From the NCBI RefSeq assembly GCF_000186705.1, contig NZ_AEUE01000004.1, positions 186,001-250,000 on the forward strand: 64,000 bases of DNA, given 5' to 3'. Each line of letters starts with the position of its first letter. The stretch's first letter is position 1. Shown here piece after piece: positions 364 through 22,332 of this stretch. Source of the DNA: Citromicrobium sp. JLT1363. GTDB taxonomy: Bacteria > Pseudomonadota > Alphaproteobacteria > Sphingomonadales > Sphingomonadaceae. Made by a program: the position numbers and the translations under genes. Under the pieces are notes generated by a model. It did no database searches. It was given only the letters and a program-made list of their open reading frames with translations, and was not told where the DNA came from.

Positions 364-383
364 CCCAGAACAGGAGAGGCGAA

Positions 384-1784
384 ATGAGCGAGAAGAACCT
401 CAAGCAGAAGCTTGCCGAAGCCGGCAACACGGTGGACCTGCTGCGCAACCAGCAGGTCGGCCCCAATGTCTATCCCGGCGTGCCCGGCGAATTTTCCAAC
501 TGGCGCGACGAGCAGCGTGCTTGGGCGGAAACGGCGGTGCTGTTCAACCAGTCGTACCACATGGTGGACCTGCTGGTGACCGGGCCCGACGCTTTCGAGA
601 TGCTCGCATATCTGGCGCCCAACAGCTTCAACAACTTCAAGCCGAACATGGCCAAGCAATTCGCGCCGGTGACGCCCGAAGGCTACGTCATCGGCGACGT
701 CATTCTGTTCTACCTCGCAGACGAGAAATTCGAACTGGTCGGGCGCGCGCCTGCCATCGAATGGGTCGAATACCACGCCGCCACCGGCAAGTGGGATGTG
801 ACGGTGGAACGTGACGAGCGCACCGCCGCCCGTCCCGAGGCGGAGAAGAACACGCGCCGCAACTATCGCTTCCAGTTGCAGGGCCCCAACGCCATGAAGA
901 TCCTTGAAAAGGCGATGGGCGAGACCCCGCCCGATCTCAAGTTCTTCCGCATGGCGCCGATCATGATCGACGGCGTGGAAGTGCGCGCGCTGCGTCACGG
1001 TATGGCTGGCCAGCCCGGTTACGAGCTGTTCGGACCGTGGAAAGATTACGACACCGTCCACTCCGCGCTGGTCGAGGCCGGCAAGGACGATGGCCTGAAG
1101 CTGGTCGGTGGCCGCACCTATGCGTCCAACACGCTCGAGTCCGGCTGGATTCCCTCGCCGCTGCCCGCCGTCTATACCGGCGAGGGGACCGAGGATTTCC
1201 GCGAATGGATGGGCGACAAGTCCTACGCCGGCATGTGCTCGCTCGGCGGGTCGTACGTGTCGGACAATATCGAAGATTATTACCTCACGCCGTGGGACCT
1301 CGGCTACGGCATCATGGTCAAGTTCGACCATGACTTCGTCGGCCGCGAGGCGCTCGAAAAGCTCGACAAGCAGCCCAAGCGCAAGAAGGTGACGCTGGCC
1401 CTCGACAATGAAGACATCCTGCGCGTGATGAGCTCGATGCTGCAGAAGGGCGACAAGGCCAAGTTCCTCGAATTCCCGAGCGCGGTCTATGCCATGCACC
1501 CCTATGATGCGGTGCTGAAGGATGGCGAGACCGTCGGCATTTCGACCTGGATCGGATATACGGTCAACGCCGGGCGCTTCCTCGCGCTGGCGATGGTGGA
1601 TGAATCCGTCGCCGCACCGGGCACCGAGGTATCGCTGCTGTGGGGTGAGCCCGATGGCGGGACCTCCAAGCCCACGGTCGAGCCGCATGTGCAGACCGAG
1701 ATCAAGGCAGTGGTCGCACCTGCCCCTTACTCCGAAGTCGCGCGCGACAGCTACGCCGAAGGCTGGCGCACCAAGGGCAACTGA
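384..1784 (+). CDS. ligM: LigM-like tetrahydrofolate-dependent vanillate/3-O-methylgallate O-demethylase
   Basis: The 466-residue protein belongs to the aminomethyltransferase (GcvT-like) fold family of LigM/DesA, which move the methyl group of vanillate, syringate or 3-O-methylgallate to tetrahydrofolate. LigM of Sphingobium SYK-6 is about 470 residues, so the length fits LigM better than the longer DesA. The start is the ATG after AGGAGAGG; the open frame extends much further upstream but overlaps the hydrolase gene and has no site. Tyr30 and the Tyr58-His59 pair (FNQSYHM) lie where the LigM active-site Tyr/His are expected, by my recollection of the structure. It lies upstream of ligAB, which would cleave the protocatechuate or gallate produced. 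Substrate preference between vanillate and syringate-type compounds is not resolved. Confidence 0.88.
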   Translation: MSEKNLKQKLAEAGNTVDLLRNQQVGPNVYPGVPGEFSNWRDEQRAWAETAVLFNQSYHMVDLLVTGPDAFEMLAYLAPNSFNNFKPNMAKQFAPVTPEGYVIGDVILFYLADEKFELVGRAPAIEWVEYHAATGKWDVTVERDERTAARPEAEKNTRRNYRFQLQGPNAMKILEKAMGETPPDLKFFRMAPIMIDGVEVRALRHGMAGQPGYELFGPWKDYDTVHSALVEAGKDDGLKLVGGRTYASNTLESGWIPSPLPAVYTGEGTEDFREWMGDKSYAGMCSLGGSYVSDNIEDYYLTPWDLGYGIMVKFDHDFVGREALEKLDKQPKRKKVTLALDNEDILRVMSSMLQKGDKAKFLEFPSAVYAMHPYDAVLKDGETVGISTWIGYTVNAGRFLALAMVDESVAAPGTEVSLLWGEPDGGTSKPTVEPHVQTEIKAVVAPAPYSEVARDSYAEGWRTKGN

Positions 1785-1868: not shown

Positions 1869-3133
<1,265 letters not shown>

Positions 3134-3202: not shown

Positions 3203-4174
3203 TCAGCCGGTGTGCTTGACGACCTGCTGTTCGATCGCTCCGAACGGTGCTCGGCCATCCTCGCTTTGTGCTTCCATGCGCACCGTATCGCCGAACCGCA
3301 TGAAGCCGGTGGTGGGCTTGCCGTCTGCGATAATCTGGATCGCGCGACGCTCTGAAATGCAGCTCGATCCGACTTGCGCGTAGCCCTTGTTGGCGACGGT
3401 GCCCGATCCGATGACGGTGCCTGCAACCAGACTGCGGGTGGTGGCTGCGTGAGCGACCAGTTCGTGGAAGCCGACCGCCATTTCGCGGCCGTTGGCGTGT
3501 CCGAACCTCTCGCCGTTCCAGTCGATGCACAGGTCCAGGGCGACGCGCCCGTCCTGCCAGGAATTGCCCAGCTCGTCCGGCGTCACAGCATAAGGCGCAA
3601 TGGTGCTGGCGGGCTTGGCGAGGATGAAGCCGAACCCGGTGACCATTTCGGGCACTGCGAAGGCGCGCAGCGACCAGTCGTTGATCTGGACGACCAGCTT
3701 GATGTGGTCGAGCGCCTCTTGCGGTGTAACGCCCATGGGCACTGCATCGACGATCACGCCGAATTCGCCTTCGAAGTCGACGCCATCTTCTTCACGCGGG
3801 AAGGCAACGTCTTCGCGCGGCGCCAGGAAGCGGTCCGACATGCCCTGATACATCAGCGGGCGTTCGTGGTGCAGCGGATCCTGCTCGAAGGCGATTTGCA
3901 TCAGCTCGCCATGGGTGTCGAAGGCCGACCCGTCGAGCCACTGCCAGCTGCGCGGCAGCGGAGCGGCGAGCGATGCGACCTCCAGCGGCTCGCCTTCGCC
4001 TTGCTCCAGCCGGTCTGCCAGTGCTTGCAGCTTCGCTGAGGCAGAGGACCAGTCACCCATGGCGGCAAGCAGGTTGGGTGCATTGCTTCCGGCAGGCAGG
4101 CAGCGCGCGCCATCCTGCGATACGACCACCAGTTCCCCGTCCGGCGTACCGTTCGCGCGGGTTGCAAGCCGCAT
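3203..4174 (-). CDS. fumarylacetoacetate hydrolase-family protein (aromatic ring-fission product hydrolase/hydratase)
   Basis: The 323-residue protein has a short N-terminal domain and a C-terminal FAH fold from about residue 110, with the acidic metal-site cluster in VDFEGEFGVIVD. Family members hydrolyse C-C bonds of acyl-pyruvates (fumarylacetoacetate, fumarylpyruvate) or act as hydratases/decarboxylases on dienoates. It is the last gene of an eight-gene reverse-strand operon. Its ATG shares an ATGA overlap with the cupin stop, so it is translationally coupled. With a GST and a ring-cleavage dioxygenase in the same operon, a late step on the ring-fission product is likely. The exact reaction is not identifiable. 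Confidence 0.85.
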   Translation of the reverse strand: MRLATRANGTPDGELVVVSQDGARCLPAGSNAPNLLAAMGDWSSASAKLQALADRLEQGEGEPLEVASLAAPLPRSWQWLDGSAFDTHGELMQIAFEQDPLHHERPLMYQGMSDRFLAPREDVAFPREEDGVDFEGEFGVIVDAVPMGVTPQEALDHIKLVVQINDWSLRAFAVPEMVTGFGFILAKPASTIAPYAVTPDELGNSWQDGRVALDLCIDWNGERFGHANGREMAVGFHELVAHAATTRSLVAGTVIGSGTVANKGYAQVGSSCISERRAIQIIADGKPTTGFMRFGDTVRMEAQSEDGRAPFGAIEQQVVKHTG

Positions 4175-4740
4175 CAGGCCAGCTCCTCGCTGAAGGTGCC
4201 GTCGATCAGGATGAAGGCGATGCGGCAGTTGCTGTCACTACGGTTGGCCCAGCCGTGGTTGGTGCCGCGCTGGATCACGATGTCGCCCGCGCGCACGGTG
4301 GTTTCGCCTTCGTCCATGATCAGCACCAGTTCGCCCTCGATCACGATGCCGTAGTCGATCGTTTCGGTGCGGTGCATCAGGGCATGCTTGGCGCCCGCCT
4401 TCGCCGCGTTGGAAGCAGAGCCTGCGCCGACTTCGGCGAAGTGGGCTGCCGCTTCCTCGGGGGTCATGTTCCTGATCCCGTCGCCTTCGGGCGGAATGTC
4501 GAGAACGCGGATGCGCGTGCCGTTCTTCGGCGGGGCGAGAACGATACCGTCTTCCTCAGGCTCTCCGCTGTCCGCGTCGATCGGGGCAGGGGTGGCGCGT
4601 GTGTTCCAGACTTCGTGGAACATCGGCCCGATATCGCCGCCAATGCGCTGCATGCGGGCAATGGGGCCGTCTTCCTGGATGATGGCGCGCCCTTCGGCGT
4701 CGTGACCGGTCACGACGCGGCGGATGGGTTGGGTGGTCAT
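4174..4740 (-). CDS. small cupin-domain protein of the aromatic operon
   Basis: This is a 188-residue single-domain cupin. The barrel shows the acidic/His positions of a metal site in the first motif region (HALMHRTETIDYGIVIEGE) and GTNHGWANRS in the second. The start is the ATG preceded by AGAGAGG; the open frame extends upstream but into the GST gene. The protein is too short for gentisate dioxygenase (about 340 residues, bicupin), so a ring-cleavage role is not assumed. It could be an isomerase, decarboxylase or small-molecule binder on the route. It is coupled to the FAH gene by a 4-base overlap and follows the GST by 16 bases. Confidence 0.8.
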   Translation of the reverse strand: MTTQPIRRVVTGHDAEGRAIIQEDGPIARMQRIGGDIGPMFHEVWNTRATPAPIDADSGEPEEDGIVLAPPKNGTRIRVLDIPPEGDGIRNMTPEEAAAHFAEVGAGSASNAAKAGAKHALMHRTETIDYGIVIEGELVLIMDEGETTVRAGDIVIQRGTNHGWANRSDSNCRIAFILIDGTFSEELA

Positions 4741-4756
4741 GGTCTTGGCCTCTCTA

Positions 4757-5452
4757 TCAGTCTGGCTTGCCGACTGGCGGCGGTTGAAAGTGCAGCCCGC
4801 GCGCCCTGAGCTCGTCCTGCGCCTTCTCTTCGTGGCGCAGCGCGGCCTGCGCGCTCGGCCGCTGCGATGCGGTGGCGTAGTGCTGCTGCAATGCGGGGAA
4901 CTTGGTCTGCTCAAAGCCTGCGCCCGTGATGCGGAACCAGATCCAGGCGAGGTAGGCATCGAGGATCGACCAGTCCTGCCCCAGCATCCAGGGCTGCGCA
5001 CTCAGCCGCTGCTCGAGCACGGTCAGCTGCATCGCCAGCCCTTCGCCAGCTTTGGCCCGGATACGCGGCGCGTCGTCCGCGTGGGTGGAAATCATCCCCG
5101 ACATGACGAAGCGCGTCACCAGTGGGTGCAGGTCGCTGGAACAGCGAAACAGCTCTTCGAGACCCTGCGTGCTCCGTGCCGCATCCTCTGGCCGGGGCAG
5201 CAGTCCAGCCTGGGGGTGACGTTGCGCCAGGAATGTCAGTATCGCGCCGTTCTGGACGATTACACCATGCGCAGTCTCGAGCGCGGGGACTTTGCCTGCG
5301 GGATTGACCGCGAGAAATTCCTCGCCGCGATGCTCGCCCGCCATAAATGCGACAAGGCGCGTTTCGAAGGGTTCGCCGATTTCCTCCAGCGCGGTCAGCG
5401 CTACCCGCGCGCAGGTTTGCGGTGCGAACCACAGGACGGGTCTGGCGCTCAC
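4757..5452 (-). CDS. glutathione S-transferase-family protein (possible ring-fission product isomerase)
   Basis: The 231-residue protein has an N-terminal thioredoxin-like GST domain (PQTCARVALTALEE, then VNPAGKVPALE with the cis-Pro, then NGAILTFLA for gamma-Glu binding) and a helical C-terminal domain. The GTG start overlaps the upstream MFS stop as GTGA. The frame runs open far upstream, but that is shadow over the MFS gene. In gentisate-type pathways a GST isomerises maleylpyruvate or maleylacetoacetate and an FAH protein then hydrolyses it, and both families occur here. That parallel suggests, but does not prove, a cis-trans isomerase role. Confidence 0.85.
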   Translation of the reverse strand: MSARPVLWFAPQTCARVALTALEEIGEPFETRLVAFMAGEHRGEEFLAVNPAGKVPALETAHGVIVQNGAILTFLAQRHPQAGLLPRPEDAARSTQGLEELFRCSSDLHPLVTRFVMSGMISTHADDAPRIRAKAGEGLAMQLTVLEQRLSAQPWMLGQDWSILDAYLAWIWFRITGAGFEQTKFPALQQHYATASQRPSAQAALRHEEKAQDELRARGLHFQPPPVGKPD

Positions 5453-6636
5453 GTTGCAGCCCTTTGGCCCGATCTCGTCTTGATGAAAGCGGCAAGCGCG
5501 CCGGCAGCAGCGGCAAGCGCGTAGACGATCAAGGCGAGCGACAGACTGCCAGCCAGACCGGTGAAGGTTGCGAGCACAAGCGGCGCGAGGAATTGCGCCA
5601 GAAAGAACGATCCTGTCCACAGGCCCATTCCCCGGCCGCGCATGGGCGCCGGGAGAGAGCGCATGGTCCAGGCCAGCATATTGGGCAGCATCAGGCCACT
5701 GCCGAAGCAAACCAGAATCGCGCCAGCGGCCAGAACGAAGAGGCTGGGGACAAGCGCCACGCCCGCGTAGCCGAGGCCGGCCACGGCCAGACCGATCGCC
5801 AGCAGGGTCGGGCCGGCATTCTGCCGCCCGCGATGGAAGGCGAAGGAACCGGCCGCGACGGCAAGATTGCAGAGCGCACCGATCAGGCCGATCTGTGCGG
5901 GAGAGACCGGCCCCGACGTTTCGAGGATCGGGCCGAGCTGAACCGTCACCGTGTAGAAGACGATGCCGATGCCGAATGTCACCAGCGAGAGCGGCAGGAC
6001 GATCCGGAAAGGGAAGGCCCCCGCATTGTCCTCTGCGTTGCTTGCCGTCGCCTCAGGCTCGAACAGGCCGATTGCTGCGGCGAGCGCGATCGGGAGCGCC
6101 AGCAGGTAGAGAAGGAACGGACCGCGCGATCCCAGGAGTTCGCCGAGCAGCCCGCCGATGGCAATCAGGATGATGGCCGCCACACTGCCAGCGGCGATCT
6201 GCGCGGCAATCCACCGCTCGCGCCGCTCGCCCGCAAAATAGTCCCCGATCAGCACCGTCGCGAGTGTCATGATGACGGCTTCGACCACGCCAAGGGCGAA
6301 GCGCGCGGCGATGATCTGGAACAGATTGTCCAGAAACCACGGAAGGATGCCGAAGACGGCGTAGAGCACCAGCGCACCCACCATCAGGTGCTTGCGTCCG
6401 ACCCTGTCCGACAGCCAGCCGGCCAGCGGCGAGAACAGCGCGACGCACAGGGCCGGTATGGTCAGCGCCATGGGCACCAGGAAGTCGCTGCTGGGTACGT
6501 CGCCGAATTCGCCGAGCAGCAGGGGCAGGACCGGGATCAGCGATACGATCGCCATGATCGGCAGGACTGCCGTTGCCAGCAGGATGAAGCCTTGCGGTTT
6601 TCCCGCCGATCGTGCGCTCGCGCCGCTGCCGATCAC
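5449..6636 (-). CDS. MFS transporter of the aromatic operon
   Basis: This 395-residue inner-membrane carrier has about 12 hydrophobic segments. The MFS loop 2-3 signature is present (GWLSDRVGRKHL) and a repeat-like motif opens the second half. The GTG start overlaps the preceding hydrolase stop as GTGA, giving a normal N-terminus just before the first membrane helix; the longer open frame upstream is spurious. Placement inside the ring-cleavage operon makes uptake of the aromatic substrate, or export of a toxic intermediate, the likely job. The substrate is unknown. Confidence 0.87.
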   Translation of the reverse strand: MIGSGASARSAGKPQGFILLATAVLPIMAIVSLIPVLPLLLGEFGDVPSSDFLVPMALTIPALCVALFSPLAGWLSDRVGRKHLMVGALVLYAVFGILPWFLDNLFQIIAARFALGVVEAVIMTLATVLIGDYFAGERRERWIAAQIAAGSVAAIILIAIGGLLGELLGSRGPFLLYLLALPIALAAAIGLFEPEATASNAEDNAGAFPFRIVLPLSLVTFGIGIVFYTVTVQLGPILETSGPVSPAQIGLIGALCNLAVAAGSFAFHRGRQNAGPTLLAIGLAVAGLGYAGVALVPSLFVLAAGAILVCFGSGLMLPNMLAWTMRSLPAPMRGRGMGLWTGSFFLAQFLAPLVLATFTGLAGSLSLALIVYALAAAAGALAAFIKTRSGQRAAT

Positions 6637-7790
6637 GCTACGTGGCCGCCCAGCGTTTCGGCAAACCAGTCGGCAATCAGATCGCGGCCATAGCTCATGT
6701 TGTCGGCCCCGACGTGCTCCACCCCGCCTTCGCGCTCGGTGAAGATCACCTTCTCGCGGCGTGGCGAATTGACGAGCTGGTCGTACAGATCGTCGGCGTA
6801 ACCGACGCTGATCTGCCGGTCGTGCGCGCCGTGGGTGACGAGGAAGGGCACCTTGATCCGGTCCATGTGCCCGTTGAGGTTCATGTCGGCCGATTTCTCC
6901 AGAAAGTCTTCCTGGTCCTCGGCGCCGAACGCCCAGTGGACGTGCGCCCAATAGTGCGGGACCGGGTTTTCGCCTTCACGCTCCATCCGCTTGTCCTGCA
7001 CTTCGCGCCAGTTGTGGTTCGCACCCCACACTGCTCCGCTGGCGAAGCGCGGTTCGTAGGCGACGGCACGCGGGGCGAAATGGCCGCCGAGCGAGATGCC
7101 GGTCATGCCGAGTTTCGCGCTATCCACTTCAGGCTGCTGTTCCAGCCAGTCGACCGCCTTGCTGGCCCAGCTTTCCGAATGCGGATCGACGGGCAGGTTC
7201 TGGAGGCGCAGCGCCTCCCCGGTGCCGGGCTGATCGACGCATAGGGTGCTGATGCCGCGTCGTGCCAGGGCGGCGGGCATGCCGGTCCAGTAGAGCATCT
7301 CCTTGCAGCTATCGAGGCCATTGCAGAACACCACGCTGGGCTTCGGGCCATCGCCCGGCGCGCGGGTGAAGATGGCGGACATCGTCCCGTTATCGAGCGT
7401 GATCTCCACGCGCTCGCGGTTGATCTTGCCCAGCCTGGTGGACTTGTCGAAGGTCTCGCGAGCCAGTGCGTAGGTTTCCTCGCGACCCTTGGTGCCGTGA
7501 CCCTGCATGCGTTCGGCCACCAGCAGGTAGAGCGATGCACGCTCCAGCTTGTCGGACGCGGAGAAGTTGCGGCCCTTGGCCTCGTCCTCTGCGGCAAGCT
7601 CAAGCAGCTTGTGGCCCATCCCGGCCCAGGCCTGCATGAACTGCGGCGTACCCGCATCGGCGCCGTTATCCGCCGCGTCGAGGATCGGCTGGCACATGTC
7701 GACGATCTCGCCGATCCGCCCGCCGCTCTCCATCGCGATCGCGACGCTCAGGTTCCAGATGTAGTTCTTGAAGGGGGAATAGAGCGCCAT
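6633..7790 (-). CDS. alpha/beta hydrolase of the 2,6-dihydroxypseudooxynicotine hydrolase/FrsA-like group
   Basis: The 385-residue hydrolase has a helical N-terminal cap of about 130 residues. The alpha/beta core then shows nucleophile elbow GISLGG, acid in THGAHDRQ and His in GGVEHVGAD. This layout matches the C-C bond hydrolases related to 2,6-dihydroxypseudooxynicotine hydrolase (about 367 residues). It lies three bases after the extradiol dioxygenase gene and is coupled to the MFS gene by GTGA. The pairing suggests that it hydrolyses the meta-cleavage product of that dioxygenase. An ordinary esterase role is the alternative. Confidence 0.85.
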   Translation of the reverse strand: MALYSPFKNYIWNLSVAIAMESGGRIGEIVDMCQPILDAADNGADAGTPQFMQAWAGMGHKLLELAAEDEAKGRNFSASDKLERASLYLLVAERMQGHGTKGREETYALARETFDKSTRLGKINRERVEITLDNGTMSAIFTRAPGDGPKPSVVFCNGLDSCKEMLYWTGMPAALARRGISTLCVDQPGTGEALRLQNLPVDPHSESWASKAVDWLEQQPEVDSAKLGMTGISLGGHFAPRAVAYEPRFASGAVWGANHNWREVQDKRMEREGENPVPHYWAHVHWAFGAEDQEDFLEKSADMNLNGHMDRIKVPFLVTHGAHDRQISVGYADDLYDQLVNSPRREKVIFTEREGGVEHVGADNMSYGRDLIADWFAETLGGHVA

Positions 7791-7793
7791 CGA

Positions 7794-8696
7794 TCAGGCC
7801 TCCGCAGGCTGGAAGAGGCAGGGATCGGCTTCGGGCTTGGGCATGGTTTGCGGGCCACCGGTGCCGACGCCCCACTGGTCCATGATCTGCGGGCCGGGCT
7901 CGTGAACCTGGGGTTCGTGGGTCTCGAAATCGACGTCTTCGAGTTCGGCCGTGTATTCGACGGCAAACCCCGAAGGCGTGGTGAAATATGAGAAGGTGTT
8001 GTTGCCCGCCGTGTGCCGCCCCGGGCCCCAGCGCAGGTCCGTGCCGCGCTTGCGCAGGCGGCTGGCACCGCGCATCATGTCATCGACCGACATCATGTCG
8101 TAGGCGACGTGGTTGAGGCAGGGCGGTCCGGGAAGAAGAGCGATCCGGTGGTGGGCGCTGTTGCAGCGCAGGAAGACCATGAAGTCGCCCAGCCAGTCCG
8201 AGACTTTGAAGCCCAGCACATCGGTGAAGAATTTGACCATGGCGTGGTGATCGGGCGAGTGCAGCACGATGTGGCTGATTTTCACCGGGACGCCCTCCCA
8301 GCGCTCCATCGCCCGCTTGTCGAGCCGCTGCACATCGGCGCTGATCTCCAACGGCAGACCGTCCGGACTGAAGAAGCGGAAACCGTAGCCACCGCCAGGC
8401 GCATCCAGATCGCGCGCTTCATGGATCAGCTTGCAGCCGGCGTCGGTCACCTTGGCCTGAAGAGCGTCCACATCCTCGCGGCTATCCGCCGCCAGCGCGA
8501 TGACTTCGATGCAGTTCGTCTCGCTGCGGTGCAGGCGTACGACGTGGTGCTCATCATGGCCGTGGGTCTTGAACCACGCCATGTCGTCCTTTGCCTCGAC
8601 TTCGACGAGGCCCCAGTCGTCGGCGTAGAACTTGCGTTCGGTGTCGAAGTCCTCGACGCCGTAGCCGACGTAGCGGATTTCGGTGACTCTGCTCAT
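7794..8696 (-). CDS. VOC-superfamily type I extradiol dioxygenase
   Basis: The 300-residue protein has two vicinal-oxygen-chelate modules, as in 2,3-dihydroxybiphenyl 1,2-dioxygenase. The C-terminal module carries the 2-His-1-Glu iron site: His in HIVLHSPDH, His in CLNHVAYD and Glu in SGFAVEYTAE, followed by a long C-terminal tail. It would open a catechol ring next to a hydroxyl. The ATG overlaps the preceding Rieske stop by four bases. It is unrelated in fold to LigB, so this island carries two independent ring-cleavage chemistries. The substrate is unknown; the oxygenases just upstream in the operon presumably make the catechol. Confidence 0.9.
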   Translation of the reverse strand: MSRVTEIRYVGYGVEDFDTERKFYADDWGLVEVEAKDDMAWFKTHGHDEHHVVRLHRSETNCIEVIALAADSREDVDALQAKVTDAGCKLIHEARDLDAPGGGYGFRFFSPDGLPLEISADVQRLDKRAMERWEGVPVKISHIVLHSPDHHAMVKFFTDVLGFKVSDWLGDFMVFLRCNSAHHRIALLPGPPCLNHVAYDMMSVDDMMRGASRLRKRGTDLRWGPGRHTAGNNTFSYFTTPSGFAVEYTAELEDVDFETHEPQVHEPGPQIMDQWGVGTGGPQTMPKPEADPCLFQPAEA

Positions 8697-9721
8697 CGTT
8701 CGTTCTCTTTCTTCTTGAGTTTTTCGATCATGCGCCGGGCGCGGGTGCCGCCCGTGTCGATCCCGAGGGACACGGGCTTGCGGTCCCAGAAACCGGCACC
8801 GTCGGTATTGGCGTAGGCGGCTTCGATGATGGGCTTGTCTTCTTCGCCGAAAGCTTGCCCCATGAGCCCCGCCAGCATGGCATCGCCCTCCACCGAGGGG
8901 GCTCCATGCCGGGTCGTCGCCCAGAAATAATGGCTTGTCGTTTCGGTCTCGGGCGTGAGGATGTGAGCCTGGTGGGCGATCACGCCTTCCTCGCGCTGCC
9001 CGCCTTCCGGGCAGGCGCCAACCTGCAGATACATGCTGGCAGGCGCGTCCCAGCGCATGTCCAGCCAGTGATCGGTGATCATTTCGGGATCGTAGATGCC
9101 GAAGGTATGCGCAGGGGCGGGGATGCCCGGCATCCACCAGTTCGAGTGCAGTTGCTCACCCTCGACCTTCACTTCGTGTTCCCCGGCGAAGATTACCCCG
9201 CGGCCGGCAAACGAGCCCTTGTGGACGAATTCGATGTGGCTGAGATCCATCAGGTTGTCGGTGCCGTATTCGTAATTCGCGTCCATCGGCATCAGGCCGG
9301 TGATCGGTGCATGTCCGTCTCTCACGATGGCGGAGAAATCGGGAATGGCATCCTCATCGGCTCGTGCCGGATCGCCCGGCCAGAACCATACGATGTGGTC
9401 GCGCTCGACTACCGGAAAGGTTCGCAGCGATGCGCCTGCCGGGATCTTGTCGGAGAAGGGATTGCGCACGCATTTGCCCGAAGTGTCGAACGTCAGCCCG
9501 TGATAGGGACACGTGACGCAGTCTCCTTCGCGCTCTCCCAGCGACAGGGGGGCATATCGGTGCGGACAGCGATCCACCATGGCGACCGCCGTCCCGTCCT
9601 CCTTGCGCATCAGCAATACGGGCTCGCCCACAAGCCGGCGACGCAGCAGGTCTGCGCCAACCTCGTCGCTCCACGCCGCCATGTACCAGGCGTTTTCAAG
9701 GAAGGGTCCGGATGGGCTCAC
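8693..9721 (-). CDS. Rieske non-heme iron oxygenase, VanA-like oxygenase component
   Basis: The 342-residue oxygenase has an N-terminal Rieske [2Fe-2S] domain (CPHRYAPL and CPYHGLTFD) and a catalytic domain with the mononuclear iron motif DLSHIEFVHKG. Length and order match the vanillate O-demethylase/phthalate-type oxygenases that demethylate or hydroxylate aromatics. I chose the GTG shortly before FLENAWY, 11 bases after the monooxygenase stop; the larger open frame upstream overlaps that gene. The ribosome site is weak, so the start is uncertain. No ferredoxin or reductase gene is nearby, so electron delivery must come from elsewhere. Confidence 0.87.
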   Translation of the reverse strand: MSPSGPFLENAWYMAAWSDEVGADLLRRRLVGEPVLLMRKEDGTAVAMVDRCPHRYAPLSLGEREGDCVTCPYHGLTFDTSGKCVRNPFSDKIPAGASLRTFPVVERDHIVWFWPGDPARADEDAIPDFSAIVRDGHAPITGLMPMDANYEYGTDNLMDLSHIEFVHKGSFAGRGVIFAGEHEVKVEGEQLHSNWWMPGIPAPAHTFGIYDPEMITDHWLDMRWDAPASMYLQVGACPEGGQREEGVIAHQAHILTPETETTSHYFWATTRHGAPSVEGDAMLAGLMGQAFGEEDKPIIEAAYANTDGAGFWDRKPVSLGIDTGGTRARRMIEKLKKKENER

Positions 9722-9732
9722 GATAGCTATCT

Positions 9733-10848
9733 TCAGATCGGCTGCGCGCAGACTTCGAACATCTCTGCGGTGGCGGTGTGGTTGTCGACCGGCGGGCCCT
9801 TGCCGATCTGGCCGTGGCAAATCGCGAGCGAGCTTTCGACGATGTACTTGCAGCGTTCGAACCGGCGTTCGCGGTAGGCGGCGAAAGCCTCTTCGGGCGT
9901 GTCCGCCTTGGCGAGTTCTTCCGCCAGCACGATGCTGTCCTCGATCGCCATGCCTGCGCCCTGACCAAGATGCGGGGTCGTCGCGTGGACGGCATCGCCC
10001 AGCAGCACGACGCGGCCGTTGCTCCACGGACCGGAAAGCATCATGCCCTCCAGCGGGCGGTAGACCACGCCTTCGTCGTCGGTGATCTTGGCGGCCATTT
10101 CCTGCAGCTGGGGTGCGGTGTTCGCCAGCTTTTCGCGCATGACCTGCGCGATGCCCTTGGTGTCGTACCACGGATTGCCCGGCTCGGGTGTGGTCACGTA
10201 CATGTACATCAGCTCTTCGCTGATCGGCACCAGCCCCACGCCGGTGGGGCCGTTATAGGCATGCAGCGCGTCCAGATCGGCAGGGCGGGGCAGGTTGTAG
10301 CGCCACACCGCCTGCCCGGTATATTCGGGCTTTTCCGCGTCGGGCAGGATCTTGCTGCGCGTGTCCGAATAGACGCCGTCGGCGCCGATCACGATGTCGT
10401 AGCGACCTTCGCTGCCGTCTGAGAAGCGGACGGTAACCCCTTCGCCGTCATCGTCGATATTCTCGGCCGTGATGCCCAGCCGGACTTCTGCGCCCGAGGC
10501 GATCGTGCGGTCACCCAGCACCTTGTGCAGCGCCGGCCGGCCGATGCCGACATTGGCGGGATAGCCTTCGACCAGCCGCGGGCTGGGCACGCGTGCGACC
10601 TGCGTGCCGTCGGGCGCGTGGACGGCAACGAAGTCGAAACCGACCGAGGCGTCTATATAGGCTTCGAGCAGGCCGAGCTGGTTCATCGCCCGCAGGACAT
10701 TGCCCTGCTGGATGATGCCGACGCCGTAGACCGCCCATTCGGGGTCTTTCTCGATCACGGTGACCGTATGCCCGTCGCGGCGCAGCGCGATCGCGGCGGT
10801 CATTCCGCCGATGCCGCCGCCAATGACGAGGACTTCCAGGTTATTCAT
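9733..10848 (-). CDS. FAD-dependent aromatic monooxygenase (salicylate/3-hydroxybenzoate hydroxylase type)
   Basis: This 371-residue group A flavoprotein monooxygenase shows the dinucleotide motif GGGIGG near the N-terminus, a DG-type motif (IGADGVYSDTRS) and the FAD ribityl motif GDAVHATTPHLGQGAG. Relatives add a hydroxyl ortho or para to an existing one, using NAD(P)H. It is the first gene of the eight-gene operon, with GGGAGTT eight bases before ATG. It would prepare the substrate for the extradiol dioxygenase. The LysR gene is divergent across a 113-base promoter region. The substrate is not deducible. Confidence 0.87.
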   Translation of the reverse strand: MNNLEVLVIGGGIGGMTAAIALRRDGHTVTVIEKDPEWAVYGVGIIQQGNVLRAMNQLGLLEAYIDASVGFDFVAVHAPDGTQVARVPSPRLVEGYPANVGIGRPALHKVLGDRTIASGAEVRLGITAENIDDDGEGVTVRFSDGSEGRYDIVIGADGVYSDTRSKILPDAEKPEYTGQAVWRYNLPRPADLDALHAYNGPTGVGLVPISEELMYMYVTTPEPGNPWYDTKGIAQVMREKLANTAPQLQEMAAKITDDEGVVYRPLEGMMLSGPWSNGRVVLLGDAVHATTPHLGQGAGMAIEDSIVLAEELAKADTPEEAFAAYRERRFERCKYIVESSLAICHGQIGKGPPVDNHTATAEMFEVCAQPI

Positions 10849-10930: not shown

Positions 10931-10947
10931 GCTGACTTATCATCAGC
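10931..10947. promoter_or_regulatory. LysR-type T-N11-A dyad between the regulator and the aromatic operon
   Basis: GCTGA and TCAGC form inverted arms around seven bases and fit T-N11-A, the LysR-family operator pattern. The dyad lies 14 bases upstream of the LysR ATG and 83 bases upstream of the monooxygenase start. It probably serves autoregulation and activation of the divergent operon. Confidence 0.55.
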
Positions 10948-10961
10948 GGTATCGATGCGAC

Positions 10962-11906
10962 ATGCGGCTAGACAATTTCGATCTCAATCTGCTGGTGGCG
11001 TTCGATGTCCTGATGCAGGAACAGAATGTTACGAAGGCAGCCAACCGGCTTAACGTGACGCAATCCGCCATGAGCGCGTCGCTCAAGCGGCTGCGCGAGA
11101 GCTTCCAGGACGATATCCTCGCCCAGCATGGCAAGCGCATGATCCCGACGCCTTTCGCGCTGACCATGCAGGCTGAGGTTTCTGGCAAGATATCCGAACT
11201 GCGCGCCCTCATTGCCCGGCAGGGGCGGTTTGATCCGCGCCATGCCGAACGCCGGTTCCGGATCGCCGCGTCGGACTACATCACTACGGTGCTGTTCGCC
11301 CCCCTGCTGAACTCGCTGGCGCAGGAGGCCCCCTCGATCCGCTTTGCGTTCGAATTGCCCGGCCCGGATTCGCAGATTGCGCTCGGCAACGGGGACCTGG
11401 ACCTGATGCTGACACCCGAAGTGTTCGTGCATCCCGACCATCCCTACGAACTGGTGTTCGAGGAACGGCACGTGACCGTGGCCAGTCTCGACAATCCGAT
11501 GGTGGAGGACGGGCTCTCCCGCTCCACCTTCGTCAATTCCGGCCATGTCGGGGTGAGCGTTGCGCGCAAGCATACCTTCGCGGAAGAGTGGTTCAGTCGC
11601 CACGGGGTGGAGCGACGGATCGAGGTGCGGGCACCTTCCTTCATCCAGGCGCCGTTTCTCGTGCCGGGAACGATGCGGTTATGCGTGATGCACGAAAGGC
11701 TGGCGCATTACATGGCGCAGCTGCTTCCGCTGAAAATCCTGGAAACGCCGTTTCCCATCCCGCCCATGCGTGAAATGGTGCAGTTCCACGCCACGCGCGA
11801 AGCCGACCCTGGCCTGCAGTGGCTCCGACAGAAGATCGGCGCGATGGCATCGCGCAGCCAGGTCAGCCCAGCATCTGCGGCAGCCACAGGGACAGGCCGG
11901 GAATAG
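10962..11906 (+). CDS. LysR-family regulator of the divergent aromatic operon (NodD/LinR-like)
   Basis: The 314-residue regulator has an N-terminal winged HTH (residues about 4-62, DLNLLVAFDVLM then TQSAMSASLKRLRE) and a C-terminal periplasmic-binding-like effector domain. The opening RLDNFDLNLL is typical of the NodD/NahR/LinR branch, whose members sense aromatics. The ATG giving this N-terminus is preferred over an in-frame TTG 33 bases upstream. Divergent placement and the T-N11-A dyad in the shared intergenic region indicate control of the monooxygenase-to-FAH operon. The inducer is unknown. Confidence 0.9.
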   Translation: MRLDNFDLNLLVAFDVLMQEQNVTKAANRLNVTQSAMSASLKRLRESFQDDILAQHGKRMIPTPFALTMQAEVSGKISELRALIARQGRFDPRHAERRFRIAASDYITTVLFAPLLNSLAQEAPSIRFAFELPGPDSQIALGNGDLDLMLTPEVFVHPDHPYELVFEERHVTVASLDNPMVEDGLSRSTFVNSGHVGVSVARKHTFAEEWFSRHGVERRIEVRAPSFIQAPFLVPGTMRLCVMHERLAHYMAQLLPLKILETPFPIPPMREMVQFHATREADPGLQWLRQKIGAMASRSQVSPASAAATGTGRE

Positions 11907-12227
11907 TGATCACCAGCAGCATGCTGGTCATCGCCGGGCCCAGCAGCTCTGCCAGCTGGGCAGGGGCCTGCAATACTGCCAGCACCCCGCCGAACAGCGA
12001 TTTGCCGGTCCAGCGTGCGTAGGCAAGCGCATCGGCGTGCGCGACATGGACCACGGGATGATCCGGAAGGGTGGAACTTCGGCGGTGCGGGCGGGGCGTT
12101 CTTCCGGGCAGAAGGCATTGCTGCCCATCGGGAAGCGCCCCCCTGGAAGATACACGACATCCGTCGTTTCCGGCGGTCTGGCACCTTCCGGGCTGGCAAT
12201 TCCGCCTTGCATCTTCGTTGGGGTCAA
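11863..12227 (-). pseudogene. Composite gene scar: formylglycine-generating enzyme fragments fused to a TRAP permease C-terminus
   Basis: No intact gene fits this stretch. From 12227 to about 12060 one frame encodes the start of a formylglycine-generating (sulfatase-maturing) enzyme: VVYLPGGRFPMGSNAF then PEERP. From about 12063 to 11995 another frame encodes a later FGE segment (HPVVHVAHADALAYARWTGK), so the intervening segment is deleted and the frame shifted. From about 11994 to the stop the frame ends LVITIPGLSLWLPQML, resembling the C-terminus of TRAP transporter large permeases. The scar runs into the 3' end of the LysR gene. FGE identity is fairly secure; TRAP identity rests on a short stretch. 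Confidence 0.6.
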
Positions 12228-13210
12228 AAAGCGTCCATGTCGTCTGCAATGACGAAGGGGCCATCATAAGCCTCGGCGATCTGCCGCAGATATTCCGCAT
12301 GCCTGGCATCCGCAGCGGCCCAGCCCGAAAAATGAGTGACCGCGACCGCGCCGACCCGCGATCTGCTCGCCAGTGCGCCTACGTCCGATGCGGACAGGTG
12401 ATGATCGCTCAGATGGGTCTGCATCTGCTTCAGGATCGGTTCGGGCATGCCGGGATTGGCCATCCGCATCCGTTCGATAGTCAGGGGAATGTCCATCATC
12501 TCCGCCACCAGCAGATCCGCATCCATCGCCAGCGTCTCCACCGCATCGCTCGGCCCGGTATCCCCTGTATAGACGATCGACCGCCCGGGTAGATCGAAAC
12601 GGTAGGAGAGCGATTGGAACCGCTGCGCCAGTTCGCTTTGCGGAGGGAAACTGTAATGCGTGTTGGATGCCACTTGCACCCTCATGCCATCGACGGTGAT
12701 GCTATCGCCGTCGCGCAGCTCCACGACTTCGATCCCGGCGCGGTGATCGATTGGCGGGGCACCCGCGACCCCATAATTGGCTGTCGCTCCCGGCACCATG
12801 GAGGCAAGCAGCCCCTCGACCATCTCACGCGTGCCCGGCGGGCCGTAGATCGTGAGCGGATCGCTGGCGCTGGTCTGGAACCTGAGGCCAAGGATTGCGG
12901 CCAGCCCGCCAGTATGGTCGAAGTGCAGATGCGAGACAAAGACGCCGTCGATCATCTTGCTCTGCACTTCGACCTTGCTGATCTGCCCCGCCGTGCCGTC
13001 GCCGACATCGACGAGGTAGTCCTTGCCGGCGAAGCGCAGCAGGTTGGCAGGTTGCGACCTTCCCGGATTGGTGACCGGCCCGCCCGACGTGCCCAGCGTG
13101 ATCCACGTGCCCACACGGTCCCGCATGGTATCCGCAGATTGTGCCGCGGCGGGCCCGGCGAGCGTAATGGCAGCGGCGAGCGCGATCGGGAGGGCCTTGA
13201 ACGTCATCAC
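12224..13210 (-). CDS. exported MBL-fold metallo-hydrolase
   Basis: The 328-residue protein has a clear Sec signal peptide (ALPIALAAAITLAGPAAAQ). The metallo-beta-lactamase fold has the zinc motif SHLHFDHTGG, then SNTHYSFPP, YTGDTGPSD and a final THFSG. It resembles the RNase Z-like periplasmic MBL hydrolases, a group that includes the AtsA-type arylsulfatases and lactonases. It lies two bases after the TonB receptor stop and surely shares its transcript, so it may act in the periplasm on the compound the receptor imports. Two ATG codons occur in tandem at the start. The substrate is not known. Confidence 0.82.
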   Translation of the reverse strand: MMTFKALPIALAAAITLAGPAAAQSADTMRDRVGTWITLGTSGGPVTNPGRSQPANLLRFAGKDYLVDVGDGTAGQISKVEVQSKMIDGVFVSHLHFDHTGGLAAILGLRFQTSASDPLTIYGPPGTREMVEGLLASMVPGATANYGVAGAPPIDHRAGIEVVELRDGDSITVDGMRVQVASNTHYSFPPQSELAQRFQSLSYRFDLPGRSIVYTGDTGPSDAVETLAMDADLLVAEMMDIPLTIERMRMANPGMPEPILKQMQTHLSDHHLSASDVGALASRSRVGAVAVTHFSGWAAADARHAEYLRQIAEAYDGPFVIADDMDAF

Positions 13211-13212
13211 GG

Positions 13213-15729
13213 TCAGAACTGGAAGCCGACCCGCACGCCGAAGGTGCGCGGCGGTTCGTACTTCACCGAAGCGACATTCGCTGCGCCCAGCTGGTAAAGC
13301 GAAGGCATGGCCTCGTTCGTCAGGTTGCGCACGAAGACACCGGCGGTGAAGCCCTTGTCGTAGGAGACGAGGGAGATGCTGGCGTCCAGCGTGATATCGT
13401 CACCGCTATTGCCGGTCGGCAGATAGTTGAACCCGATGATGCGGTTGCTGCGATAGCGGCCGTCGACAGTCGCGATGATTTCGTAATCGCGCATTGCGAA
13501 GGTCTGCTGCAGGCCCAGGTTCACGGTCCACTTCGGCGCATTCAGCGCCTGCTTGCCCGAACAATCGATGGTGAACGTGCGCTGGGGCGTGAGGTTCTGC
13601 GTGTAGTCGCAGCCCGTCACCGGCGTCAGGAAGTTGGGCGGGTCGGTCGCGTCGGACAGGTCGACCTGCTCATACACGAAGCGATCGAAGGTCGCGTCGA
13701 GATACTGGACGCCGCCGCGCAGGACGGTGCTCTGTGTCACCAGCGCCTGGAAATCGACTTCGAAGCCCTTGATCGAGGATTCCCCGACGTTGCGGGTGTA
13801 GAACGAGTTGTTGCCCCGATCGTCAACGCCCAGAGCGGCCAGCTGCTGGCCGGTATAATCCCAGTAGAACGCTTCGAGGTTCACCTGCAGGCGGTTGTCG
13901 AAGAAGCTGTTCTTGGCGCCGATCGTGTAGGCGTCGATATATTCAGGATCATATTCTTCCTGCCCGAAGGTCAGGTTGAAGCCGCCTGCGCGAAAGCCCG
14001 TTTCGAAGCTGGCGTAGAGCAGGTTATCCGGCGTGACGTCGTATTCCAGTGCGGCGCGCCAGGTGACCTGGTCGTCGCTCGCGGTCCGATCGATCTGCGT
14101 CGGAGTGACGATCAGCAGTGCCTGCGGTCCCGTTGGGCCGAAGGGGCCGTACGGGAAGGTTCCGTAGGGGGACGGGCGGGTCAGCGGCGAGCCTGCGGGG
14201 AACAGCGCAGGATCGAGCTGGGAAATGGTATCCTCAAGCGTGAGGCCGACCGGTATCGTCGGGACCTGGGGGCAGCTTGGCGGGCCGGCCACGGGCTGGA
14301 TCAGGCACACCCCGGCGATCGCAACCGACAGGGCATCGATCGACCTGTTCTCGTCCGTGTAGCGGATACCGCCGACAATCCGGAAATCGTCCGTCACGCT
14401 GAAGCTTCCGCGTGCGAAGATAGCGGAGGATTCGGTCGATGTGTCGAACTCCTGCAGCGATACGGTCGAGAACTGGTTGTACGAATTCACGCCTTCCACA
14501 TTCTCGTCGAAGTAGTAGGCACCCACGAGCCATTCCAGCGGACCGGCATAGCCCGAAAGCCGACCTTCGACGCTGAACTGTTCCGCCATGTCCTGGTTGA
14601 TACCCGCCTTGAAAGGCGCGCCGTTGAACAGATTGTCGAGTCTCGATTGGCGGTATGCGGGGATGATCACCAGGTCGGCGAAACCAAGATCGGCGTTGAA
14701 TTCCGCGTTCACGCCCCAGTACTCGTCATCCCGGAACGGATAGGCATAACCGGTTACCGGCGAATACAGCGGCGCGGCCGTCGCATTGTTCTCGATGAAG
14801 TCGAGCGTCTGCGGAGCGAACAGGCCGGTGAAGGGCTCGCTCACGTTCGCAGGAGAAGGCACGAACTGCCAGTTCGGCACCGTGGCATTGGGCGTAAACG
14901 GCGAGAAGGTGTAGACGCCGTCCACATCCAGACCGGGCCCGGTACCTTTCGAAGTCGAATAGTCGGCGGACAGGCGCAGATCGATATCCGGCGACAGATC
15001 GAACAGGACTTGCCCGCGCAGGGCCAGATTTTCCGCTGCACCCGTCCCGTCGGAATAGTATCCGTCCCGGTCTGTCCATGCTCCGGCAAACCTCGCTGCA
15101 GCGCTGTCGCCCAGAGGGACGTTCACGACACCGTTGAACTCCAGCGCGTCGTAATTGCCGTATTGCGCGGAAACGCTGCCCTCGGTCACACCGAGGCGCG
15201 GAATGTTGGGAATGACGTTGACGGCACCGCCGGTCGCATTGCGACCGTAAAGAGTGCCCTGGGGCCCCTTGAGCACTTCCACTCGATTCACGTCAAGGAA
15301 GGATGCGACGGTGGACGAGGGGCGGCCGATATAGACGCCGTCCAGATTGAAGGCCACGGCCGGGTTCGTGTAGCCGTTATTGGCGAAATTGCCGACGCCG
15401 CGCACGAAATAGCCGACGTTCGCGCCACCTGCTTCGGGCACGTATAGCGCGGGGGCAACCTTGTTGAGCTGCGTCACGTCGGCCACCCCGGAGCGCGTCA
15501 GCTCTTCGCCGCTCGCCGCATTGATCGGAATAGCTGCGTCCTGCAGCGTTTCCTCGCGACGCTGTGCAGTGACGATAATTTCGTTGAGGCCGCCGCGGGG
15601 CTGCTGCTGGGCGGTGGTCGCATCCTCGCCCGTTGCGTCGGTTTGCGTTTCGTCCGCTGTTTGCGCGTGGGCGGGCATAGCCAACATCGCAAGCGCCATG
15701 GCAGTGCTCGTCAGAACACGGTTCTTCAT
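13213..15729 (-). CDS. TonB-dependent outer-membrane receptor of the aromatic island
   Basis: The 838-residue protein has a signal peptide (ending AHAQ), a TonB box-like EIIVTAQRR near residue 55, a plug domain and a 22-strand barrel ending in aromatic Phe. I chose the ATG after GGGGAGG rather than the in-frame ATG 24 bases upstream. Sphingomonads import lignin-derived aromatics through such receptors. Position opposite a PcaK-like carrier and pobA suggests a substrate such as 4-hydroxybenzoate or a conjugate. No iron-type operator is obvious at its promoter, which supports a non-siderophore role. Confidence 0.88.
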   Translation of the reverse strand: MKNRVLTSTAMALAMLAMPAHAQTADETQTDATGEDATTAQQQPRGGLNEIIVTAQRREETLQDAAIPINAASGEELTRSGVADVTQLNKVAPALYVPEAGGANVGYFVRGVGNFANNGYTNPAVAFNLDGVYIGRPSSTVASFLDVNRVEVLKGPQGTLYGRNATGGAVNVIPNIPRLGVTEGSVSAQYGNYDALEFNGVVNVPLGDSAAARFAGAWTDRDGYYSDGTGAAENLALRGQVLFDLSPDIDLRLSADYSTSKGTGPGLDVDGVYTFSPFTPNATVPNWQFVPSPANVSEPFTGLFAPQTLDFIENNATAAPLYSPVTGYAYPFRDDEYWGVNAEFNADLGFADLVIIPAYRQSRLDNLFNGAPFKAGINQDMAEQFSVEGRLSGYAGPLEWLVGAYYFDENVEGVNSYNQFSTVSLQEFDTSTESSAIFARGSFSVTDDFRIVGGIRYTDENRSIDALSVAIAGVCLIQPVAGPPSCPQVPTIPVGLTLEDTISQLDPALFPAGSPLTRPSPYGTFPYGPFGPTGPQALLIVTPTQIDRTASDDQVTWRAALEYDVTPDNLLYASFETGFRAGGFNLTFGQEEYDPEYIDAYTIGAKNSFFDNRLQVNLEAFYWDYTGQQLAALGVDDRGNNSFYTRNVGESSIKGFEVDFQALVTQSTVLRGGVQYLDATFDRFVYEQVDLSDATDPPNFLTPVTGCDYTQNLTPQRTFTIDCSGKQALNAPKWTVNLGLQQTFAMRDYEIIATVDGRYRSNRIIGFNYLPTGNSGDDITLDASISLVSYDKGFTAGVFVRNLTNEAMPSLYQLGAANVASVKYEPPRTFGVRVGFQF

Positions 15730-15804
15730 CTTAGTATCCTCCCCAGGGGTCATTTTTGACCTTCGTGAGATCAGGCTGCCGGGTTTTTACGGATTGGTCT
15801 AATC

Positions 15805-17287: not shown

Positions 17288-18459
17288 GGCGCGTGCAGGT
17301 CTGCATTATCGGCGCGGGGCCGGCCGGGCTGCTTCTCGGCCATCTGCTGAGGGCTGAGGGGGTCGATTGCCTGGTGCTCGATCGGCAGAGCCCGGATTAC
17401 ATCCTCGGTCGCATTCGCGCAGGCGTGCTCGAAACGATCACGGTGTCGCTGATGGAGCGACTTGGCCTCGACGCAAGGCTGAAAGCCGAGGGGCTGTGGC
17501 ATGATGGTTTTCAGCTGGCCGACGGAGAGCGGCTGATACGCATCGACCTTGCCGACCTGACCGGCAGCCGGGTGATGGTCTATGGCCAGACCGAGCTGAC
17601 CCGCGACCTCATGCAGGCCGCGGAAGAGCGCGGGCTGGAGATCGAATACGGCGCGCGCGAGGTTGCGCTGCACGGGATGGAAGGCGACGCGCCGCATGTG
17701 ACGTGGACCGATGCGAATGGCGCGCAGCAGCGGGTGGATTGCCGCTTTATCGTGGGATGCGATGGGTTTCACGGGCCGAGCCGAAAGGCGATACCGGCAA
17801 ATGCCGGAAAGGGCTTCGAAAGGGTCTACCCCTTCGGCTGGCTTGGCATCCTTGCCGATGTGCCGCCCTGCCATCACGAACTGATCTATGCCAGTCACGA
17901 AAGGGGCTTCGCACTGGCGTCCATGCGGAGCGAGACGCGCAGCCGCTATTACATCGACGTGCCAGCGGGCGAGGACGTTGCCAACTGGCCGGACGATCGC
18001 GTGTGGGACGAACTGGCCCTGCGTCTTGGGCCGGAAGCGGCTGCCGGAATTGCGCGCGGACCGAGCATCGAAAAGAGCATCGCCCCCTTGCGCAGCTTCG
18101 TCTTCGAACCGATGCGGTATGGCAGTCTGCTGCTTTGCGGAGATGCGGCCCATATCGTGCCGCCAACCGGGGCCAAGGGCCTCAATCTGGCGGCCAGCGA
18201 CGTGCACTACGCTGCCGAGGCATTGACCGCGTTCTTCTTGCGCAACTGTGACGATGCGGTCGCCGCCTATTCGCAAAAAGCGCTGTCCAGGGTCTGGAAG
18301 GCGGAGCGTTTCAGCTGGTCGCTGACGCGGCTCATGCACCGCGATCCGTCCGGCGGCCCGTTCGAACGCAGGATGCAGCTGGCGGAGCTGGACTACATCG
18401 CATCGAGCCGTGCTGCGCAGACGGCCATCGCCGAAAACTACGTGGGCCTGCCCGTCTGA
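17284..18459 (+). CDS. pobA: 4-hydroxybenzoate 3-monooxygenase PobA
   Basis: The 391-residue flavoprotein is close to the 394 residues of Pseudomonas PobA. The N-terminal FAD motif is GAGPAGLLLG, followed by the GRIRAGVLE segment of PobA, then CDGFHGPSRK (DG motif) and GDAAHIVPPTGAKGLNLA. It converts 4-hydroxybenzoate plus NAD(P)H and O2 to protocatechuate, feeding LigAB. Translation is coupled to the transporter by an ATGA overlap. It converges on the aldo/keto reductase with only six bases between the stops. Confidence 0.95.
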   Translation: MRRVQVCIIGAGPAGLLLGHLLRAEGVDCLVLDRQSPDYILGRIRAGVLETITVSLMERLGLDARLKAEGLWHDGFQLADGERLIRIDLADLTGSRVMVYGQTELTRDLMQAAEERGLEIEYGAREVALHGMEGDAPHVTWTDANGAQQRVDCRFIVGCDGFHGPSRKAIPANAGKGFERVYPFGWLGILADVPPCHHELIYASHERGFALASMRSETRSRYYIDVPAGEDVANWPDDRVWDELALRLGPEAAAGIARGPSIEKSIAPLRSFVFEPMRYGSLLLCGDAAHIVPPTGAKGLNLAASDVHYAAEALTAFFLRNCDDAVAAYSQKALSRVWKAERFSWSLTRLMHRDPSGGPFERRMQLAELDYIASSRAAQTAIAENYVGLPV

Positions 18460-22266: not shown

Positions 22267-22332
22267 GACCGGACCCGCCTGCGGCGCGATCGAACCTGCG
22301 GCAAATGGATAGGGCGGGCAGCCCATAAACTT

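Follow-up and report, generated by a model that had tools for sequence, protein, structure and literature searches.

A sphingomonad operon with a conserved core that probably encodes a version of the flavonoid A-ring cleavage pathway

Two aerobic routes for cleaving the A ring of flavonoids, fde and ifc, are genetically described in the literature searched. In Herbaspirillum seropedicae, FdeE adds a hydroxyl to naringenin at C8; with FdeC the A ring is then opened and removed, putatively as oxaloacetate, so that a lactone is left (PMC10755750); the small Rieske protein FdeD is reported to be part of the hydroxylase complex (PMC8552027). The ifc cluster of Variovorax sp. V35, which acts on daidzein, comprises a FAD monooxygenase (FMO), a VOC dioxygenase, an alpha/beta hydrolase (ABH; locus 59470) like 2,6-dihydroxypseudooxynicotine hydrolase (DHPONH) and two cupins, and fde is described there with the same set (PMC11069340). 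The parts played by IfcA, IfcB and IfcD1/2 are backed by mutants and enzyme assays: IfcA yields 8-hydroxydaidzein, with IfcB a peak fitting the next intermediate appeared although not all substrate was consumed, and a 2-hydroxy-4-pyranone intermediate is the substrate of IfcD1/2 (PMC11069340). Here we compare with these systems an eight-gene operon in 64,000 nucleotides of Citromicrobium sp. JLT1363 (contig NZ_AEUE01000004.1, positions 186,001 to 250,000; hereafter the window), which encodes an FMO, a VanA-like Rieske oxygenase, a VOC extradiol dioxygenase, an ABH, an MFS transporter, a glutathione S-transferase (GST), a cupin and a FAH-family hydrolase (Table 1). An earlier note on this DNA had found no described pathway with this set, a claim that must be withdrawn since FMO, VOC, DHPONH-like hydrolase and cupin are the set described for ifc and fde (PMC11069340). 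We consider it probable, from the comparisons below, that the operon is a sphingomonad version of the fde/ifc type of A-ring cleavage pathway, and we are less confident of any particular substrate. No paper on this cluster was evident by title among the matches listed for sphingomonad and flavonoid-type terms, in a literature that covers few subscription papers.

The comparison was based on 86 fde-like loci of other bacteria, each picked because it has an FdeC-type VOC gene (the best 80 of at least 501 obtained when an FdeC-type alignment was run against named genomes, and six plasmid loci), in which homologues of the window proteins were sought by tblastn. The label FdeC-type rests on gene company and not on the fde sequence: the VOC gene sits with those of an FMO and a small Rieske protein, which mirrors the grouping of FdeC, FdeD and FdeE. 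Homologues of the FMO are present in 76 of these loci (37-63% identity, median 43) and of the ABH in 74 (44-68%, median 54), followed by FAH in 52 (median 54%) and cupin in 37 (33-51%, median 47). For example, a Pseudomonas thivervalensis locus (L137) has an FMO at 48% and an ABH at 54% to the window; the cluster of another strain, SC5, is reported to be highly identical to the H. seropedicae naringenin genes (PMC8515041). Homologues of ifcA/B/D have been reported in Sphingopyxis, among others (PMC11069340).

The window FMO is an FdeE-type FAD monooxygenase and its ABH a DHPONH-like hydrolase, as in the fde/ifc clusters. The FMO scores 488.3 bits against a cut-off of 372 on NF005313/PRK06847, a broad model named 'hypothetical protein', which the FMOs of two fde-like loci, L057 and L058, also match (553.2 and 443.4 bits). 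The ABH matches DHPONH in PDB 2jbw (3.1e-19), and its residues S233, D324 and H359 are conserved in 98 of 98 aligned rows. Quick trees, which carry SH-aLRT support only and were built on chosen subsets (62 of 134 VOC, 48 of 110 FMO and 45 of 98 ABH rows), join the sphingomonad FMO clade to a Pseudomonas FMO from an FdeC/FdeD locus (SH-aLRT 88) and place the window ABH in one family with the ABH proteins of fde-like loci.

Conservation among sphingomonads separates the eight genes into two groups. A survey of 197 genomes, including that of the window, found a VOC match at E 1e-20 or better in 31. Twenty related loci were used: every one of the 17 sites beyond the window where a VOC reaches 60% identity (in 16 genomes, G044 contributing both L033 and L051), plus three of the 12 plasmid records that reach the same level; one of the loci, L041, begins at a contig end. 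Neighbours were counted within about 18 kb, with a separate identity threshold for each gene. With a threshold of 60%, ABH is found nearby in 19 of the 20 loci, FAH in 18 and FMO in 15; cupin occurs in 12, a number that rises to 15 if 30% suffices, in addition to a homologue of the divergent LysR regulator in 14, a TonB receptor in 12 (at least 33%) and an MBL-fold protein in seven (at least 45%). MFS occurs in four loci (at least 50%), GST in three and the VanA-like Rieske oxygenase in only one. Because of these counts we regard FMO-VOC-ABH-cupin-FAH as the core and Rieske, MFS and GST as local additions, so that only part of the eight-gene set recurs in other sphingomonads. Incomplete cores also occur: L036 has VOC, FMO, TonB receptor and LysR genes without ABH, cupin and FAH, and L185 has ABH, cupin and FAH without VOC and FMO. 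The distribution is patchy, with VOC in G000 and G002 among the ten genomes of the genus searched, and the bacteria that hold the core stem from sediment (marine and mud), soil and plant roots. Some relatives (L048, L049, L050 and L191) carry a second type of cluster, with a VOC at 46-49% to that of the window, a homologue of an amidohydrolase and an FMO that lies closer to the FdeE-type group.

Several observations weigh against assignment to the fde/ifc type. The window VOC shares no more than 25-36% identity with its counterparts in the 86 fde-like loci and is not of the FdeC/IfcB type. FdeD was not found in the genome of the window, in a search whose positive controls matched. Kinship was judged through the fde-like loci, H. 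seropedicae fde and Variovorax V35 ifc both being compared by description only; H. seropedicae was not among the best 80 of the at least 501 loci. Within the stretch examined, ABH is missing from 12 of the 86 fde-like loci and cupin from 49. Disruption of the ABH gene in ifc left daidzein degradation unaffected, and the available portion of that paper names no FAH gene in ifc (PMC11069340). Finally, a search with controls found no C-glycoside deglycosidase beta subunit in the genome of the window, so that this line of evidence, taken up below, comes from relatives only. Strict fde/ifc membership is not claimed, because an FdeC-type VOC and FdeD were both looked for and are both missing.

Within the core, it is the VOC enzyme that differs from fde and ifc. 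It matches the HpaD model TIGR02295 at 5.1e-31, below the cut-off, and PDB 3b59 at 1.7e-153; the single FdeC-type protein tested matched no NCBIfam model at 1e-10. Residues H142, H196 and E247 (window numbering), which we take from knowledge of the family to be metal ligands, are kept in 29 of 29 rows, 24 from sphingomonad loci and five FdeC-type. In a careful tree of 44 of the 134 VOC rows (19 FdeC-type and 18 sphingomonad among them), the FdeC-type and sphingomonad enzymes form separate groups (support 100/100 and 100/99). An approximately unbiased (AU) test did not reject a single clade of FdeC-type and window-type VOC (p-AU 0.103), for which reason an old common origin of both types stays possible. 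In view of this test, we regard a swap of the VOC from an unrelated lineage as no more than likely. The firmer, and best, sign that the ring-cleaving dioxygenase is exchangeable is L071, a locus in a SAR86 metagenome-assembled genome, whose ABH (68%) and FMO (63% to the window) fall inside the sphingomonad clades of the quick trees, yet whose VOC is FdeC-type and accompanied by an FdeD homologue; misassembly is possible in such a genome, though the genes share one 68 kb contig. FdeD at 30% identity or more is missing from all 20 related loci, and no match was found in G000, G002 and G044, with matches in the other three sources searched. Some relatives (L142-L147 and L186-L189) also carry divergent VOC genes that are FdeC-like, at 30-36% to the FdeC type, in several cases close to FMO and ABH genes; we take them as a further lineage of the pathway.

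Among the local additions, the Rieske oxygenase matches VanA_C (4.2e-43) and Rieske (1.3e-20) in Pfam, and its best PDB match is dicamba O-demethylase (4.2e-70). Homologues at 58-65% were found in four other relatives (G084, G109, G110 and G033), three of them near genes of this kind (L048; L047/L184; L192, where it adjoins an ABH at 47%) and one, L190, not. Weaker Rieske oxygenases (31-42%) occur in 11 of the 86 fde-like loci.

The genes around the operon bear on what it might degrade. Seven of the seven related loci with an MBL homologue have it adjoining the TonB receptor, and TonB receptor, MBL protein and FMO genes are consecutive on one strand in four of the 20 loci (L034, L035, L037 and L053). 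The MBL protein has as its best structure match PDB 8gyg 'Arysulfatase' (2.2e-88, residues 30-328), and its translation begins with a hydrophobic N-terminus and contains the motif HLHFDH; the full-length named match, together with the HxHxDH motif, makes it a probable MBL-fold arylsulfatase. On the RNase Z models the protein falls far short of the cut-offs. Among the other neighbours, pobA occurs in three of the related loci (L034, L040 and L056) and ligB in two (L035 and L040). Farther along the window, positions 20435-23481 beyond PobA hold Amidohydrolase_2, DUF1932 and PcaQ-like LysR genes that may be more of the protocatechuate route, and another FAD_binding_3 monooxygenase-type gene lies at 29386-30618.

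Relatives carry sugar-processing genes near the core. Both C-glycoside deglycosidase subunits lie near the core in three of the 20 related loci, and Gfo/Idh and GMC genes in three. In Croceicoccus marinus (L052), for instance, a VOC-ABH-cupin-FAH core is flanked by genes for GH3, Gfo/Idh/MocA, a GMC oxidoreductase and both deglycosidase subunits (PF19906 6e-36; 8qvc chains A and B). The beta-subunit family was also found in G044 and in the congener G002, about 14 kb from the VOC. Overall, C-glycoside deglycosidase and/or GH3, Gfo/Idh and GMC genes were seen near the VOC-ABH core in L052 (1-15005), L032, L033, L051 and L043. G044 holds two such cores with identical VOC (L033 and L051), one near the deglycosidase subunit genes and the other near Gfo/Idh, GMC and GH3. 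These neighbours in Croceicoccus and other relatives are suggestive of C- and O-glycosyl flavonoid use in Sphingomonadales. C-glycoside deglycosidases have been tested on flavonoid, xanthone and anthraquinone C-glycosides (PMC8563793), and seagrasses often accumulate sulfated flavonoids (PMC11840769).

We favor a flavonoid because of the pair of TonB receptor and arylsulfatase homologue, the presence of pobA and ligAB, and the C-glycoside deglycosidase genes of relatives, and these neighbours suggest sulfated, sugar-linked or methylated flavonoids as the food. Gene content, homology, conserved catalytic residues and conserved neighbourhoods are observed; from them, by analogy, we infer the substrate, every reaction, the step order, export of the sulfatase and regulation. 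The TonB receptor would import a flavonoid conjugate, the arylsulfatase homologue would strip its sulfate, and the Rieske oxygenase could O-demethylate a methoxyl group. The FMO would then hydroxylate the A ring next to one of its hydroxyls (at C8 for FdeE and IfcA). Cleavage of the resulting catechol would fall to the VOC enzyme, and the DHPONH-like and FAH hydrolases would cut the dicarbonyl side chain to a C3/C4 keto acid such as oxaloacetate, leaving the cupin to act on the remaining pyranone or lactone; this order of FMO, VOC, ABH/FAH and cupin follows the H. seropedicae and Variovorax routes. The B-ring fragment may pass to 4-hydroxybenzoate and, through PobA, to protocatechuate, the substrate of LigAB. 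The divergent LysR protein would control the operon. The candidate LysR box is the sole dyad of its kind in the 64 kb window, and it was not found with up to three mismatches in the 20 related loci; for this reason it is called no more than a candidate. More speculatively, and with considerable doubt, the region could be an island devoted to flavones that marine or coastal plants make in sulfated and O-methylated form. Uptake and desulfation outside the cytoplasm would then connect with O-demethylation and with cleavage of the A ring, the latter by an extradiol enzyme whose recruitment was independent of that of FdeC. Sister genomes would feed the same core via C-glycoside deglycosidases, and Sphingomonadales would thus own interchangeable entry modules for flavonoid conjugates around a single conserved core.

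The earlier note had suggested a lignin-type or plant phenolic, and of these the plant phenolic is the better fit. A lignin-type or other simple methoxyphenol is in our view an unlikely substrate; in that case the Rieske enzyme would O-demethylate, the FMO would hydroxylate, the VOC would cut the catechol and the products would join DesA-LigAB. DesA and LigAB do adjoin the operon and the Rieske protein is VanA_C/dicamba O-demethylase-like; however, DesA-LigAB is convergent and outside the operon, a Rieske gene found in just one of 20 related loci cannot define the core, and FMO, ABH, cupin and FAH match fde-like clusters. Given DesA and LigAB, moreover, the breakdown of vanillate and syringate needs no VOC dioxygenase plus DHPONH-type hydrolase. 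Flavonoid degradation matches this gene set better than breakdown of a lignin monomer does.

Next, and also improbable in our estimation, comes another polyphenol with a phloroglucinol- or resorcinol-type ring (a xanthone, anthraquinone, chromone, dihydrochalcone or stilbene), degraded along the lines of the A-ring scheme above. The ABH resembles DHPONH and Ayg1, an enzyme of pigment formation, both of which cleave C-C bonds in dicarbonyl-type compounds. The C-glycoside deglycosidases, too, were tested on a xanthonoid and an anthraquinone (PMC8563793). The literature searched showed no cluster of this set for such compounds, however, and at the gene level the match is to flavonoid-type clusters.

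We give very little credence to a hybrid of meta-cleavage and gentisate-like chemistry for a monocyclic hydroxybenzoate, as the earlier note would have it, since GST and FAH families are both present but GST occurs in three of 20 related loci, the scores fall short of the maleylacetoacetate isomerase and fumarylacetoacetase cut-offs, and the cupin is a single 188-residue domain, shorter than the roughly 350 residues of gentisate dioxygenase. A gentisate/homogentisate lower pathway was accordingly rejected (GST 67.5 bits against 171.05 for maiA; FAH 32.4 against 375.3 for fumarylacetoacetase, with no NCBIfam equivalog cut-off reached by the FAH protein; GST not conserved), and so the note's GST-FAH half is not a unit, although its proposal of a coupled operon for a plant phenolic by extradiol cleavage and C-C hydrolysis fits the gene content and a core that recurs in other sphingomonads. 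Classical meta-cleavage of the BphC-BphD type was likewise rejected: the hydrolase best matches FrsA-like proteins and DHPONH, and neither BphD nor MhpC is named among its 15 PDB or six NCBIfam matches.

All eight genes lie on one strand, as the note has it; this is the minus strand, from 10848 to 3203, and Pfam supports each of the families named (FAD_binding_3, Rieske + VanA_C, Glyoxalase in two matched stretches, FrsA-like, MFS_1, GST, Cupin_2 and FAA_hydrolase). From FMO to FAH the junctions are +11, -4, +3, -4, -4, +16 and -1 bp, lengths that depend on the start codons we chose. Four-base overlaps thus occur at three of seven junctions, one as ATGA and two as GTGA, with one further single-base overlap (TGATG); the note had counted five, with the two GTGA correctly given. 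A single transcription unit is plausible. Between the stop codons of FAH and ligB lies a hairpin of ordinary stability (z -1.41, 17 of 200 shuffles equally stable), and no terminator is claimed.

Table 1. Features of the operon and its surroundings, in positions of the window
Feature	Position	Strand	Basis or proposed role
FMO, FAD monooxygenase (NF005313/PRK06847)	9733..10848	-	Proposed flavonoid A-ring (C8) hydroxylase
Rieske oxygenase with VanA_C domain	8693..9721	-	Proposed O-demethylase; Pfam and PDB match
VOC type I extradiol dioxygenase, HpaD/C23O-like	7794..8696	-	TIGR02295, PDB 3b59
ABH, alpha/beta hydrolase, FrsA/DHPONH type	6633..7790	-	Proposed C-C hydrolase
MFS transporter, accessory	5449..6636	-	PF07690 2.9e-35
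GST, accessory (possible isomerase)	4757..5452	-	PF02798 5.2e-10
Cupin, single-domain, proposed IfcD counterpart	4174..4740	-	PF07883 1.8e-10
FAH-family hydrolase, acylpyruvase-type candidate	3203..4174	-	PF01557 1.2e-33, PF18288 5.8e-22
LysR regulator, divergent	10962..11906	+	LysR family
Candidate LysR-type box, perfect dyad GCTGA-N7-TCAGC (fits T-N11-A)	10931..10947	.	LysR/FMO divergent region
MBL-fold arylsulfatase homologue, probably exported	12224..13210	-	PDB 8gyg
TonB-dependent receptor	13213..15753	-	2 bp upstream of arylsulfatase-like gene
PobA, 4-hydroxybenzoate 3-monooxygenase	17290..18459	+	TIGR02360 595.8 bits vs cut-off 538.7
ligA + ligB, protocatechuate 4,5-dioxygenase subunits, convergent with operon	1869..3133	+	ligA TIGR02792 179.7 bits vs 108.6; ligB NF009903 528.7 vs 317
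DesA-type syringate O-demethylase, start approximate	375..1784	+	NF047633 838.4 bits vs cut-off 800; also passes LigM model, 622.5 vs 580

Flavonoids, including sulfated and C-glycosylated forms, are abundant plant carbon. If the operon is indeed a version of the A-ring pathway, one conserved core would serve exchangeable entry genes (arylsulfatase, Rieske demethylase and C-deglycosidases), very different VOC enzymes could fill the ring-cleaving step, and flavonoid use by soil, rhizosphere and marine Sphingomonadales would have a testable genetic basis.

Among the closest systems are three uncharacterised clusters, those of C. marinus (L052), Novosphingobium pentaromativorans US6-1 pLA3 (L053) and Sphingomonas sp. 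R1 (L056), with VOC at 69-88%, ABH at 78-86% and FAH at 62-67%. L053 and L056 also share with the window the FMO (73-74%), the TonB receptor and LysR, and L053 the arylsulfatase homologue. The three differ in having no close VanA-like Rieske oxygenase (L056 has one at 35%), and L052 further differs in its GH3 and C-glycoside deglycosidase genes and in having no FMO within the stretch examined. The plasmid locus L059 of Burkholderia anthina SO82 has the row transporter, ABH, EthD, FdeC-type VOC, Rieske protein, FMO, MFS, cyclase, cupin and FAH, with ABH at 54%, FMO at 42%, cupin at 47% and FAH at 53% to the window; its VOC is at 26%, and the genes for the small Rieske protein, EthD, cyclase and an epimerase set it apart. 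With fde of H. seropedicae SmR1 (FdeE Hsero_1007, FdeC Hsero_1005 and FdeD), as described at second hand, the window shares the FAD monooxygenase, VOC-superfamily dioxygenase, alpha/beta hydrolase and cupin (PMC11069340, PMC10755750, PMC8552027); it differs in a VOC far from the FdeC type, the lack of FdeD, and the extra VanA-like Rieske oxygenase, TonB receptor and arylsulfatase homologue. The ifc cluster shares FMO, VOC dioxygenase, DHPONH-like hydrolase and cupins, but IfcB is 65.8% identical to FdeC and hence FdeC-type, whereas the window VOC is not, and ifc has two cupins where the window has one (PMC11069340). What appears to be new here relative to fde and ifc is a different VOC ring-cutter, the lack of FdeD and an added VanA-like Rieske oxygenase, in a gene set that itself has precedent.

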